From positions 1-32,733 of the forward strand of contig JAAYIG010000068.1 in the NCBI GenBank assembly GCA_012523595.1: a DNA stretch of 32,733 nucleotides, in the 5' to 3' direction. Position 1 is the first letter of the stretch, and each line of letters opens with the position of its first letter. Positions 1-30,880 of the stretch are shown one piece after another. Origin of the DNA: Fibrobacter sp. GTDB lineage: Bacteria; Fibrobacterota; Chitinivibrionia; Chitinivibrionales; Chitinispirillaceae. The notes below the pieces were generated by a model. It saw nothing but the letters and a program-made list of their open reading frames with translations. It had not been told where the DNA came from and made no database searches. The position numbers were made by a program, and so were the translations under genes.

Positions 1-83
1 AAATAATCCATACACCAACTATTCTGAGGTTTACACAAATTTTTCAGCACTCTCTTTAAGGCTGCGCAAGGTTGTTTCAACAA

Positions 84-233
84 TTCACCTGCGAGGTGAA
101 AAAATGAAATAAGGTAGAGTCTCCTAAAGGCACCTCTGGGGTAAAATAAGGATCAAAGATAAAGTCCTTAATTCTCCTCTGGGGTGAAATAGAGAGACCC
201 AAACCAGAATCCTTATTTCATCTCTGAGGTAAA
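84..233. repeat. Four-unit phased palindromic repeat (element A)
   Basis: Four copies of a short palindromic unit related to TTCACCTCAGAGGTGAA lie here, with unit centres near 92, 137, 180 and 225 (spacing 45, 43, 45). The first copy (84-100) is almost perfectly self-complementary. The block as a whole is also an imperfect palindrome about position 158.5: unit 1 pairs with unit 4 and unit 2 with unit 3, and an inner TAAGGA/TCCTTA stem (147-152 with 165-170) sits exactly at the centre. It lies beyond the 3' end of the minus-strand gene at 289-705. Related elements are at 822-885 and 1721-1784. Function is unknown; a BIME/REP-like repeat, a MITE remnant or an operator array are all possible. 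Confidence 0.75.
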
Positions 234-248
234 TCCCCTTAACGGGGA
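234..248 (-). terminator. Weak terminator-like hairpin
   Basis: TCCCC (234-238) and GGGGA (244-248) form a 5-bp stem with a 5-nt loop, 41 bases past the stop of the minus-strand gene at 289-705. On the minus strand it is followed by only three T residues, so it is a poor intrinsic terminator. It also abuts the palindromic element A. Confidence 0.25.
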
Positions 249-288
249 ATCCGACTTTCTGCCGCATCCCCCAGTTTACAATAAAAAC

Positions 289-705
289 TCAGAAGTTCCA
301 CTCATAATAGGTAGTTGTAGTGTGCCCTTCCTCATCAATTTCGTATTCTGCCAGAACAGGTTTTTTACACAGACGCTGCAGTTCCTCGGAATCCGAATTG
401 GTCATAGACTGCAATGTAAGCTGGACTTTACCCTCATACCCCTTTTTGGTGGAATACCCCATCCCGATGACATGGTAGGAGACATAATCCCCGTTTTCGG
501 TAAACATAACCGCCTCACCATCATCATACTCAACGCCTTCAGAATTGATTATCGCTCTGCTTGTTCCTGCTGCTTTAAATTCGATCCCCAGAATTTTCCC
601 TTTGTCCTTGAAGTCATATTCACATTTAGTATAATCCGCAGCAACCTCAAGTACCCGCATTCCGGTTATCATCCCCATGTCCTCTCCTATTTTTTCGGTA
701 TGCAT
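289..705 (-). CDS. Hypothetical protein, 138 aa
   Basis: I do not recognise this protein. It is a short, soluble, acidic sequence without signal peptide or membrane segment, rich in alternating hydrophobic and polar residues that suggest a beta-rich fold (for example GDYVSYHVIGMGYSTKKG and GKVQLTLQSM). It ends in an acidic and threonine stretch followed by YYEWNF. The ATG at 705 is chosen because it is preceded on the minus strand by AAGGGGG at good spacing; an internal Met-Gly-Met near residue 10 is a less likely start. It is divergent from the outer-membrane protein at 1110, and both the gap after it and the gap before it carry the palindromic repeat elements. A small lipocalin-like or ligand-binding barrel is conceivable but is only a guess. 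Confidence 0.65.
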   Translation of the reverse strand: MHTEKIGEDMGMITGMRVLEVAADYTKCEYDFKDKGKILGIEFKAAGTSRAIINSEGVEYDDGEAVMFTENGDYVSYHVIGMGYSTKKGYEGKVQLTLQSMTNSDSEELQRLCKKPVLAEYEIDEEGHTTTTYYEWNF

Positions 706-1109
706 ATTTCCCCCTTGTATTTACATAGAACTTTTACATAGTTAAAAATTTGGAAATGCCCAGCACCTTAAAGATTGCGATATGATTGCCAGAGGTATTG
801 TAGTGATCGAGATGTGCTTAATTTCACCTCAGAGAGGAAACCTTGACTTAAACCATTAAATCACTGAATCATCTCTGGGGTGAAAAAGAAGCAAACCCTA
901 CCCCGGGATTATGTCTATAAATCAAAATCCTTTTTTTTTTACCTGAACCCTCTCAACAGCAGCGAAATTTTGTATATTCAATAAAAGCACCAATCCAGAG
1001 ATATCGGGTATCTCACTTTCAGGCTTTCATTTAAAAACAGAAAAACAACTCAAACCACATCGGTCCCAAAAAAACCAAACAAACTCAACTTCACAAGATG
1101 GGAGGTTTT
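706..1109. other. 404-bp divergent intergenic region
   Basis: This gap separates the divergently transcribed 138-aa gene and the outer-membrane protein gene. It contains palindromic element B (822-885), a run of T residues (about 931-940) and a TATATT hexamer at 973-978 that could be a -10 box for the plus-strand gene. No convincing -35 partner is seen: the hexamer 17 bp upstream is CTCTCA. No credible small gene was found. Confidence 0.5.
822..885. repeat. Two-unit palindromic repeat (element B)
   Basis: Two units related to TTCACCTCAGAGGTGAA have centres at 831 and 876, 45 bp apart. The 64-bp block is an imperfect palindrome about 853.5: 822-835 pairs with 872-885, and a central stem pairs 844-851 with 856-863. 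One C-A mismatch in the inner stem (847/860) becomes a G-U pair if the minus strand is transcribed. It shares its geometry with element C at 1721-1784 although the sequence between the units differs. Confidence 0.75.
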
Positions 1110-1553
1110 ATGAAAAAAACGATGATGTCTATGCTTATCATCGGTGCCTTATGCAGTAGTGCGTTTCCATTAAAGCTCGGGCTGGAATTTCAGACCGGCT
1201 CCGATCATTTAGTAGGTGCAAACCTGCGTATAACAGACATGGTTGAATTAAAACCCCAGATAGGATTCCAGGCTTCTGATAACCATGGTGCATTTGGACT
1301 CGCTTTCAGCGGTAACTTCTATCTGCCAAATTTGGGAGATTTACAGCATTATGCAGGAGCTGGGTTCAGACTTGATTTCATTAAAGACTCGGACACACAA
1401 TTTGGATTGGATGGACACTATGGGGTACGTTATGATATTAACGATATCTTTGGTGTATTCGGAGAGCTAGGAGTGTTATTTGACCTTGCTCCTTCTTTCT
1501 TCATGTCTTCCTATAAAGCCGGTGTTGGTTGCACATTCTATTTAATCAGATAA
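1110..1553 (+). CDS. Small outer-membrane beta-barrel-like protein
   Basis: A 147-aa protein beginning MKKTMMSMLIIGALCSSAFP, a typical Sec signal peptide with cleavage likely after the Ala-Phe region. The mature part alternates polar and hydrophobic residues (GLAFSGNFYLPN, YAGAGFRLDF, GVRYDINDIFGVFGELGVLF) and ends in an aromatic-rich strand, as in small outer-membrane barrels. The ATG at 1110 is preferred over the in-frame ATG at 1098 because GGAGG (1101-1105) sits at ideal distance before it and the signal peptide starts there. A strong hairpin terminator follows 19 bases after the stop, so the gene appears monocistronic. A specific function cannot be named; a porin-like or structural barrel role in the outer membrane is inferred. 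Confidence 0.75.
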   Translation: MKKTMMSMLIIGALCSSAFPLKLGLEFQTGSDHLVGANLRITDMVELKPQIGFQASDNHGAFGLAFSGNFYLPNLGDLQHYAGAGFRLDFIKDSDTQFGLDGHYGVRYDINDIFGVFGELGVLFDLAPSFFMSSYKAGVGCTFYLIR

Positions 1554-1572
1554 TAACAGGCTAACGGGAATC

Positions 1573-1600
1573 TTTTCAGCAGCTTTTAAGCTGCTGAAAA
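1573..1600 (+). terminator. Hairpin terminator after the outer-membrane protein gene
   Basis: A perfect 13-bp stem (1573-1585 with 1588-1600) with a 2-nt central turn, flanked by T4 and A4 so that it could act in both directions. It lies 20 bases after the stop of the outer-membrane protein gene. Confidence 0.8.
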
Positions 1601-1720
1601 TTCCACTCTACAGAATTGACCGCCATAGCATTCCACCCCAGTAACATTTTGTAACACTTTTCCAACCAATAGCGTTTTTCCTGATAGAGAGCCTCTTTCC
1701 TGTGTTATTTTTCCTTTATG

Positions 1721-1784
1721 ATTCACCTCAGAGGTGAATTTGTGATTTAACGTGTTAAGTCATTCTTTCATCTCAGAGGTGAAT
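1721..1784. repeat. 64-bp near-perfect palindrome (element C)
   Basis: Two palindromic units (centres 1730 and 1775, 45 bp apart) flank a central stem GATTTAAC (1744-1751) / GTTAAGTC (1754-1761). The whole 64 bp is one palindrome about 1752.5, with 24 Watson-Crick pairs, 3 G-T pairs and 4 mismatches by direct pairing. Each outer unit is itself a palindrome, so the block can fold either as one long hairpin or as separate smaller ones. It ends 41 bases before the alpha-2-macroglobulin ATG and could lie in that gene's promoter or leader. Confidence 0.8.
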
Positions 1785-27430: not shown

Positions 27431-28189
27431 GTGATAAGCGTAATCTCCTGCTCCCGCAAAGATCCCTCCTGGGATCTCCATCAGCGAAACGTTTCAAAAA
27501 CCGCAGGATCTCCTCATGAATATATCCGGATCGATAACCGTGATGGCCGGTTCGGACTCTGTGCTGCCTACAACAAAGGGGTATCCCTTGCTAATGGAGA
27601 GATCCTGGTGTTTATGCACGAGGATGTCTTCTTTATGGAAGGCAACTGGGGAACTGTATTGGAGAAAAAATTCAGCGATCCCTCTGTGGGGCTGGTCGGT
27701 GTTGCCGGAACACAATACCTGTTCAGAGATACGCCCGGATGGGTAGTGGCGGGCAGACCCTTTATTAAGGGTCATGTTGTGCATGAACTGAATAACGGCA
27801 ACATCTATCATCTCACTGTTTTTAACTGGGGTAAAGAAGACTCTGATGTTGTTGCAGTTGACGGGCTCTTTTTCGCGATCAGAAAAAGTCTCTTTGAGAG
27901 GATTAGATTTGATGAAGCTCTCTTCGACCAGTTCCACTTTTATGACCTGGATATCTGTATGCAGATCCGTCGCACCCACCGGCTGATCGTTACCTGGGAT
28001 ATTCTGGTGAAGCACCAGTCCGGCGGTTCATTTGACAAAACATGGGAGAAATACGCCCAGCGTTTCATACAGAAGTACCGTGACGAACTGCCTGCTTCAT
28101 GCACAGATAAAATCCCGGATCTGACAAAACGCATACCTTTCGAGAATTTTGATCTCAAGGGTAAAGCTCCTCAGATTACAATTGCCTGA
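27431..28189 (+). CDS. GT2-like glycosyltransferase (Glyco_tranf_2_5 type)
   Basis: A 252-aa soluble glycosyltransferase-like protein. It begins MISVISCSRKDPSW, keeps the GT-A features CAAYNKGVSLANGEILVFMHEDVFF (which contains the HED acidic motif) and VDGLFFAIRKSL, and has a downstream YDLDICMQIR segment. This matches the small GT2-related group often found in polysaccharide or tetratricopeptide glycosyltransferase clusters. Acceptor and donor are unknown. The start is a GTG at 27431, 12 bases after the nifU stop, with a GAAGAGA-like ribosome binding site overlapping the nifU end, so the two genes are probably cotranscribed. A metabolic link with nifU is not obvious. Confidence 0.8.
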   Translation: MISVISCSRKDPSWDLHQRNVSKTAGSPHEYIRIDNRDGRFGLCAAYNKGVSLANGEILVFMHEDVFFMEGNWGTVLEKKFSDPSVGLVGVAGTQYLFRDTPGWVVAGRPFIKGHVVHELNNGNIYHLTVFNWGKEDSDVVAVDGLFFAIRKSLFERIRFDEALFDQFHFYDLDICMQIRRTHRLIVTWDILVKHQSGGSFDKTWEKYAQRFIQKYRDELPASCTDKIPDLTKRIPFENFDLKGKAPQITIA

Positions 28190-30453: not shown

Positions 30454-30623
30454 GAACCCGGGGTTCAGCCGATATCTGAGATTCCCTTCCTGCAATCCCC
30501 TACTTTACCGTTTTAAAAAAAAATCTTTCTTTCCTTTACGGCATCACATATCTTATTTGCATCTATAAACGGATTCCCGAAACGGGATCTTGATGTTTCA
30601 TTTTTTAGAAGAGGTTTTGCAGT
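30454..30623 (+). promoter_or_regulatory. Leader region of the cold-shock gene with hairpins
   Basis: The gap upstream of the cold-shock gene contains a 13-bp palindrome GAACCCGGGGTTC (30454-30466), an A-rich run near 30517 and a small hairpin with stem TCCCG/CGGGA and loop AAA (30575-30587). The hairpin lies 37 bases before the start codon. Cold-shock genes commonly have long structured leaders that respond to temperature. Whether this one does so cannot be seen from sequence. Confidence 0.35.
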
Positions 30624-30827
30624 ATGCCCACAGGTGTTGTCAAGTGGTTCAATGAGGCCAAAGGATATGGATTTATCTCACCGGATGACGGCTCTCGTGA
30701 TGTATTCGTCCATTTTTCCGCAATCCAGTCTAATGGTTTCCGGAAGCTGGAAGAAGGACAGAAAGTTCAGTTTGAAGTTGTCGATGGAGCAAAAGGTCCC
30801 AATGCTCAGAATGTAGTTCCTCAATAA
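30624..30827 (+). CDS. Cold-shock domain protein
   Basis: A 67-aa single cold-shock domain (OB fold), the normal size for CspA-family RNA chaperones. The RNA-binding motifs KGYGFI (RNP1) and VFVHF (RNP2) are both present, with [10 protein letters not shown] at the N-terminus. These proteins melt secondary structure in mRNA and single-stranded DNA. The ATG at 30624 follows GAGG at about 10-nt spacing. It is monocistronic, with a strong terminator right after it. Confidence 0.97.
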
Positions 30828-30849
30828 CTGCCTGAACATAAAAATGCAC

Positions 30850-30880
30850 AAAGGCCTGCGAAAATGCAGGCCTTTTTTTT
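30850..30880. terminator. Strong terminator after the cold-shock gene
   Basis: AAAGGCCTGC (30850-30859) pairs perfectly with GCAGGCCTTT (30866-30875) around a 6-nt loop and runs into T8 on the plus strand. It also lies directly past the stop of the minus-strand GT2 gene and is followed by a T-rich stretch on that strand, so it probably serves both. Confidence 0.92.

Follow-up and report, generated by a model that had tools for sequence, protein, structure and literature searches.

A dispersed palindromic repeat family linked to a RAYT/TIRYT-type transposase in a Fibrobacterota genome

The eight short palindromes near the start of the DNA analyzed here (hereafter the window; 32,733 nt, which is the entire contig C68 of a 4.1-Mb genome assembled in 260 contigs) very probably represent dispersed copies of the end of a RAYT/TIRYT-type element that is related to IS200/IS605 and encodes a Y1 (HUH) tyrosine transposase. 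Our searches showed this repeat family, termed P1, to be linked to a cognate transposase; its mobility and function we infer. P1 is a 17-bp imperfect palindrome (TTCAYCTCNGRGGTGAA), and the units of the window are spaced by 45, 43, and 45 bp in block 1 and by 45 bp in each of blocks 2 and 3 (Table 1). All eight units, their three blocks, and their spacings, as originally predicted, were recovered: at ≤3 mismatches the window held 17 P1 strand-matches versus 1.4 expected from dinucleotide shuffles, and none of 100 shuffles reached 17. The eight palindromes are not due to chance. As had also been predicted, the rest of the window contained no further convincing copy, a match at 28149 having 3 mismatches and lying inside an ORF.

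The same prediction had the elements confined to three gaps, which was not the case. The genome-wide search proposed with it found further copies: at ≤2 mismatches there were 202 forward and 186 reverse strand-matches, versus 2 and 1 for a reversed-pattern control. Since P1 is nearly self-complementary, most sites are counted on both strands, and the number of separate sites is ~200. When the 45-bp unit was searched for with a covariance model, at least 164 strand-matches were obtained in this genome, with 150 of 2774 candidates scored. To characterize the copies we used 61 regions (305 kb), which were selected for containing P1 and whose counts are not a census; these held 247 units in 136 clusters, i.e., 61 singles, 51 dimers, and 24 clusters of three or more. 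Only 14 of the 247 units fell within ORFs of ≥150 aa, although such ORFs cover 69% of the sampled regions, and an intergenic bias of P1 was shown. P1 units without the transposase gene are found in numerous intergenic positions, be they single, dimeric, or in tandem arrays, and the genes that neighbor the window blocks (an orphan ORF, a small membrane-type protein, and a macroglobulin) appear to be incidental.

Ten Y1_Tnp matches were found in the genome, nine of them with PF01797 above cut-off. The cognate subfamily, whose best NCBIfam match is REP_Tyr_transpos (E 1e-18 to 1e-20; NF047646 scores of 66-72 bits, below the curated cut-off of 80), is represented by seven 5' halves (on C44, C54, C205, C50, C58, C195, and C173), all cut at contig ends, and its copy number is about seven. 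Since every cognate copy is split in this way, no intact element was read in this assembly. P1 units lie upstream of all seven 5' halves, the innermost being ~107 bp before the start in C54, C205 (where it is degenerate), C50, C195, and C173, as judged from coordinates. Aligning the seven copies showed a common leader that begins in the last P1, with differing DNA beyond it. Six contigs (C25, C255, C214, C59, C129, and C231) have their start within the 3' region of the transposase or within its flank; on C25, a four-unit P1 array follows ~208 bp after the transposase stop, and this downstream array is matched by homology on C255, C129, C59, and C214. As a control for specificity, no P1 was found in the stretches surrounding three more distantly related Y1 genes (on C257, C16, and C105). 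Proteins of the group are ~320-345 aa long with a Y1 domain, and the own-genome copy has HYH and YIHFNP motifs, corresponding to the HUH motif and the likely catalytic Tyr of Y1 transposases.

Among relatives, the covariance model gave at least 149 strand-matches in G015, a species of the same genus, 7 in G014, 3 in G004, and 1 in G016, with no P1 matches in the other 19 genomes of the family; the P1 family was shown to be restricted mostly to one genus. Transposase relatives were present in 21 of 81 genomes, again with PF01797 above cut-off, and their loci held 23 P1-like sites versus 0 for the reversed pattern and 0.55 for shuffles. P1-like units accompany related transposases in several other genera, including close pairs (32-35 bp) near the gene in G004 and G016. 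G032 and G033, which are classified in other families of the order, have just one P1 ahead of the start (by 22-23 bp) and one that overlaps the stop, the two being of opposite polarity with the CCCC half outermost. Such an arrangement amounts to a minimal element in which P1 forms the terminal inverted repeats. P1 was not convincingly present alongside the more distant transposases of G020, G027, and G028. Conversely, G014 holds a four-unit 45-bp P1 array (L157:1790-1941, on C121) and no transposase relative was detected in that genome, for which a missing contig, contamination, or transfer could account.

Several relatives merit separate mention. Two full-length RAYT-like ORFs of G016 (L153:2466-3434 and L154:2234-3199) lack the HUH motif (NQYD/NQYN) and have Ala in place of the likely catalytic tyrosine, and both keep P1 pairs (34-35 bp) on either side; they possibly encode a catalytically dead, repurposed transposase. 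A transposase relative in G003 (L159:1748-2764) has an intact HYH and a His at the likely catalytic tyrosine, with P1-like sites (≤3 mismatches) downstream only. G015 corresponds to the MAG 'Fibrobacter sp. isolate AS06rmzACSIP_199' (a 100% identity match with the macroglobulin query), and among the sequences next most similar to its macroglobulin was that of a MAG from Chitinispirillaceae, a family in Fibrobacterota to which the genome of the window presumably belongs as well. The G015 region upstream of the macroglobulin gene was considered as an empty site and set aside, as it is not syntenic, has no P1, and is hence uninformative.

The association could conceivably have arisen the other way round, with the transposase elements only inserting preferentially in or near pre-existing P1 repeats that had been spread by other means. 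Other insertion sequences are known to target REPs (PMC8450116), and another IS adjoins block 1. However, P1-like sites have fixed offsets at either end of the gene in several genera, also where the covariance model finds few or no other copies in the genome; the leader common to the copies starts in P1; and unrelated Y1 genes of the same genome lack P1. We regard this alternative as extremely improbable, and take P1 to be a part of the element.

In the window, block 1 is 91% identical to C255:421-576 and 84% to C25:600-772, with a partial-length match of 87% to C129, and on C25 and C255 the transposase 3' region immediately precedes the block-1-like array. Ahead of block 1, window positions 1-54 match other places in the genome (96-100% identity), with 54/55 as the end point of most copies, and on C54 the same segment lies beyond a Transposase_mut (Mutator/IS256-type) ORF. 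Block 1 would be what forms the right end of a transposase element, into which a different IS would have inserted, either severing the gene part or separating it from the block. Dimers resembling block 2 are present elsewhere in the genome.

Table 1. P1 units and associated features in the window.
Feature	Position	Strand	Sequence or remark
IS256/Mutator-type IS end, outside P1 family	1-54		Adjoins block 1; contig starts there
Block 1, four-unit P1 array	82-238	+	Homologous to array downstream of cognate transposase gene
P1 unit 1, block 1	84-100		TTCACCTGCGAGGTGAA
P1 unit 2, block 1	129-145	+	GGCACCTCTGGGGTAAA
P1 unit 3, block 1	172-188	+	TTCTCCTCTGGGGTGAA
P1 unit 4, block 1	217-233	+	TTCATCTCTGAGGTAAA
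P1 unit 1, block 2	823-839	-	TTCACCTCAGAGAGGAA
Block 2 abutting arms of two extended units, inverted repeat	840-867		TGACTTAA..TTAAATCA
P1 unit 2, block 2	868-884	+	ATCATCTCTGGGGTGAA
P1 unit 1, block 3, perfect palindrome	1722-1738		TTCACCTCAGAGGTGAA
Block 3 abutting arms of two extended units, inverted repeat	1739-1766		TGATTTAAC GT GTTAAGTCA
P1 unit 2, block 3	1767-1783	+	TTCATCTCAGAGGTGAA

Aligned P1 sites showed that conservation exceeds the 17-bp core, the left arm reading TTAAGTCAYTAA and the right arm its complement, TTARTGACTTAA (~41-45 bp in total), and that two abutting units form an inverted junction, GTGACTTAAC nn GTTAAGTCAC. The DNA between units had been described as unconserved in the original prediction; it in fact consists of the degenerate GTGACTTAAC..GTTAAGTCAC arms of one extended 41-45-bp palindrome that is conserved family-wide, and block 1 in its entirety shares 84-91% identity with arrays elsewhere. 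As a family, P1 is polar and no perfect palindrome (left half TTCAYCTC, right half GRGGTGAA), and two half-sites with C at position 6 were paired together in 4 of 257 units versus ~20 expected from the marginal frequency.

Spacing in the 61 regions had a sharp peak at 45 bp (43 pairs), followed by 43-44 and 61-62 bp (19 pairs each), and some arrays (on C173, C119, C168, and C204) are near-identical 45-bp tandem repeats. Compared with shuffles, adjacent 45-bp pairs had a raised direct identity both in P1 (0.81 vs. 0.71) and in the flanks (0.62 vs. 0.49), and their inverted identity was not above shuffles. In the sister species G015, the mode was 60 bp (25 pairs), with 11 pairs at 61 bp and a second peak at 44-45 bp (24 pairs); as regards the 45-bp phasing that was to be checked in relatives, the main pitch there is 60-61 bp. 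Since neighbors are direct repeats and the pitch differs between congeners (45 vs. mainly 60-61 bp), the phasing reflects the length of a duplicated unit, and the 45-bp value is most simply the length of a unit duplicated head to tail. In the own genome, the 61-62-bp class forms a separate subfamily; its outer flanks are conserved, and its polarity, where resolved, is nearly always inverted (+ then -). It occurs at L028:1543 and 1991 as well as in L027, L037, L038, L040, L042, L115, L116, and L120, with outer flanks GGGTC.. and AAGGACATTACAGCCCTC and ~110 bp in all, and looks like a more recently spread composite element.

The constant phasing had been ascribed to a folding constraint or to cooperative protein binding; given the direct repeats, the shift in pitch, and the lack of a pairing excess (see below), neither is supported. 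It seems very unlikely that P1 is an operator and that cooperative binding by a regulator or nucleoid protein maintains the 45-bp phasing. A conserved sequence without stem covariation would suit protein recognition of double-stranded DNA; however, 45 and 60-61 bp amount to ~4.3 and 5.8 helical turns and so give no common helical face, array neighbors are plain direct repeats, singles make up about a third or more of the clusters (61 of 136), and the known associate of P1 is a transposase.

We give hardly any credence to the view that the blocks are kept mainly as RNA structures, i.e., terminators, attenuators, or transcript-stabilizing hairpins, whose fold sets the phasing. The three blocks do fold much better than shuffles (z -4.6, -6.0, and -8.0) and block 3 has a terminator-like site, but good folding is expected of any inverted repeats, since these must fold well. 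Pairing across the unit was 69.2% versus 69.0% in shuffles, i.e., no excess over column composition; only three of 14 flank pairs tested in 257 units (-3, -4, and -7) were slightly above shuffles; and isolated dimer partners showed no covariation beyond composition. Compensatory changes, which the original prediction had put forward as a check, are thus no more frequent than column composition gives, either within units or between dimer partners. Furthermore, the positions of the would-be hairpin loop are among the most conserved, although the search pattern itself favors them, and the pitch differs between species. By crude ORF-based gene calls (with 36 clusters unassigned), P1 had no terminator-type bias to gene ends and occupied codirectional, divergent, and convergent gaps roughly by gap length, and the occupation of divergent gaps in proportion to their length also tells against a role in transcripts. 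An Rfam covariance-model scan of the window found no known RNA family at the P1 blocks; its only match was to the cspA thermoregulator (30537-30879, + strand; 92 bits, gathering score 78). A role of P1 as a folded RNA or as a terminator is unsupported.

Returning to the transposon-end reading, we propose that the transposase would recognize P1 and move or copy P1 units in trans, leaving behind gene-less derivatives such as, perhaps, window blocks 2 and 3, and that the arrays may expand through slippage or unequal exchange and then degenerate by mutation. Because the ends of the element are arrays, no target-site duplications were established. How P1 is read is a further matter. A profile of eight sequences matched the DnaA C-terminal region (chains 2hcb and 1l8q) at the C-terminus of the transposase, a weak match (E 0.004), the own-genome copy being known in halves only, and the G033 protein gave sub-threshold matches to HTH_23 and Bac_DnaA_C. 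On this more tenuous footing, a DnaA-like C-terminal domain might recognize P1 as double-stranded DNA. It is conceivable, if rather doubtful, that P1 is a REP-like repeat read mainly in this way and not as a single-stranded hairpin; such recognition would explain why sequence and polarity are conserved without stem covariation or a GTAG guide, and P1 would then have spread by a route other than that of canonical REPs.

The original description of the elements as REP-like was right in kind, given that they are intergenic, high-copy, palindromic, and linked to a RAYT-type transposase. Like the REP, BIME, and REPIN elements that accompany RAYTs in E. coli, Pseudomonas, and Stenotrophomonas, P1 is a short, high-copy, intergenic palindrome that bounds a RAYT-type transposase and occurs in inverted dimers. 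Canonical REPs, which bound RAYT genes, carry GTAG/GTGG at the foot of the hairpin, whereas P1 has no such foot tetranucleotide on either side (oriented consensus of 178 units). P1 differs further in that its stems lack covariation beyond composition, head-to-tail arrays are prominent, and the transposase is multicopy with a C-terminal HTH. CRISPR arrays likewise have partly palindromic repeats at regular intervals, and this identity was considered and rejected: P1 repeats vary, their spacers are homologous arms, and they occupy dozens of dispersed, transposase-linked loci.

The closest likeness is to the TIRtrons of Di Nocera et al. (2013; PMC3733652), in which RAYT-like genes, named TIRYT, have terminal inverted repeats on either side. 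Several of these repeats share the sequence GGGGWSAS, some are self-complementary, and some are dispersed as singles, dimers, or clusters (PMC3733652). A 2018 survey assigns most TIRYTs to subclass 2.1, whose long proteins end in a DnaA-C or HTH region, and reports no REP-like sequences beside the genes of this subclass (PMC6006769). The P1-linked protein is likewise a tyrosine transposase (Y1/HUH) that exceeds RAYT in length and resembles DnaA in its C-terminal region; inverted repeats lie at both gene ends (in G032 and G033, and in the own genome as upstream P1 and a downstream array); and some repeats are self-complementary, with genomic copies as singles, dimers, and clusters. The agreement in sequence is partial, as the half-site GRGGTGA[A/C] is related to GGGGWSAS while exact GGGGWSAS is only sporadic near the genes. 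We file P1 as a family of the TIRtron/TIRYT kind that is unusually abundant and tandemly arrayed. It extends the RAYT/TIRYT-linked repeats by an abundant family from an uncultured lineage of Fibrobacterota and explains many assembly breaks in these genomes, and it bears on the question of whether large repeat families can be generated by subclass 2.1 (TIRYT) proteins, which appears to be the case here. From the one-P1-per-end elements of G032 and G033 to the large arrays of one genus, these genomes offer a natural series of a transposon end becoming a genome-wide repeat. What sets P1 apart from the TIRtrons described is its number (~200 or more copies), its exact tandem arrays at 45 or 60-61 bp, the presence of about seven transposase copies, and a host in the phylum Fibrobacterota.
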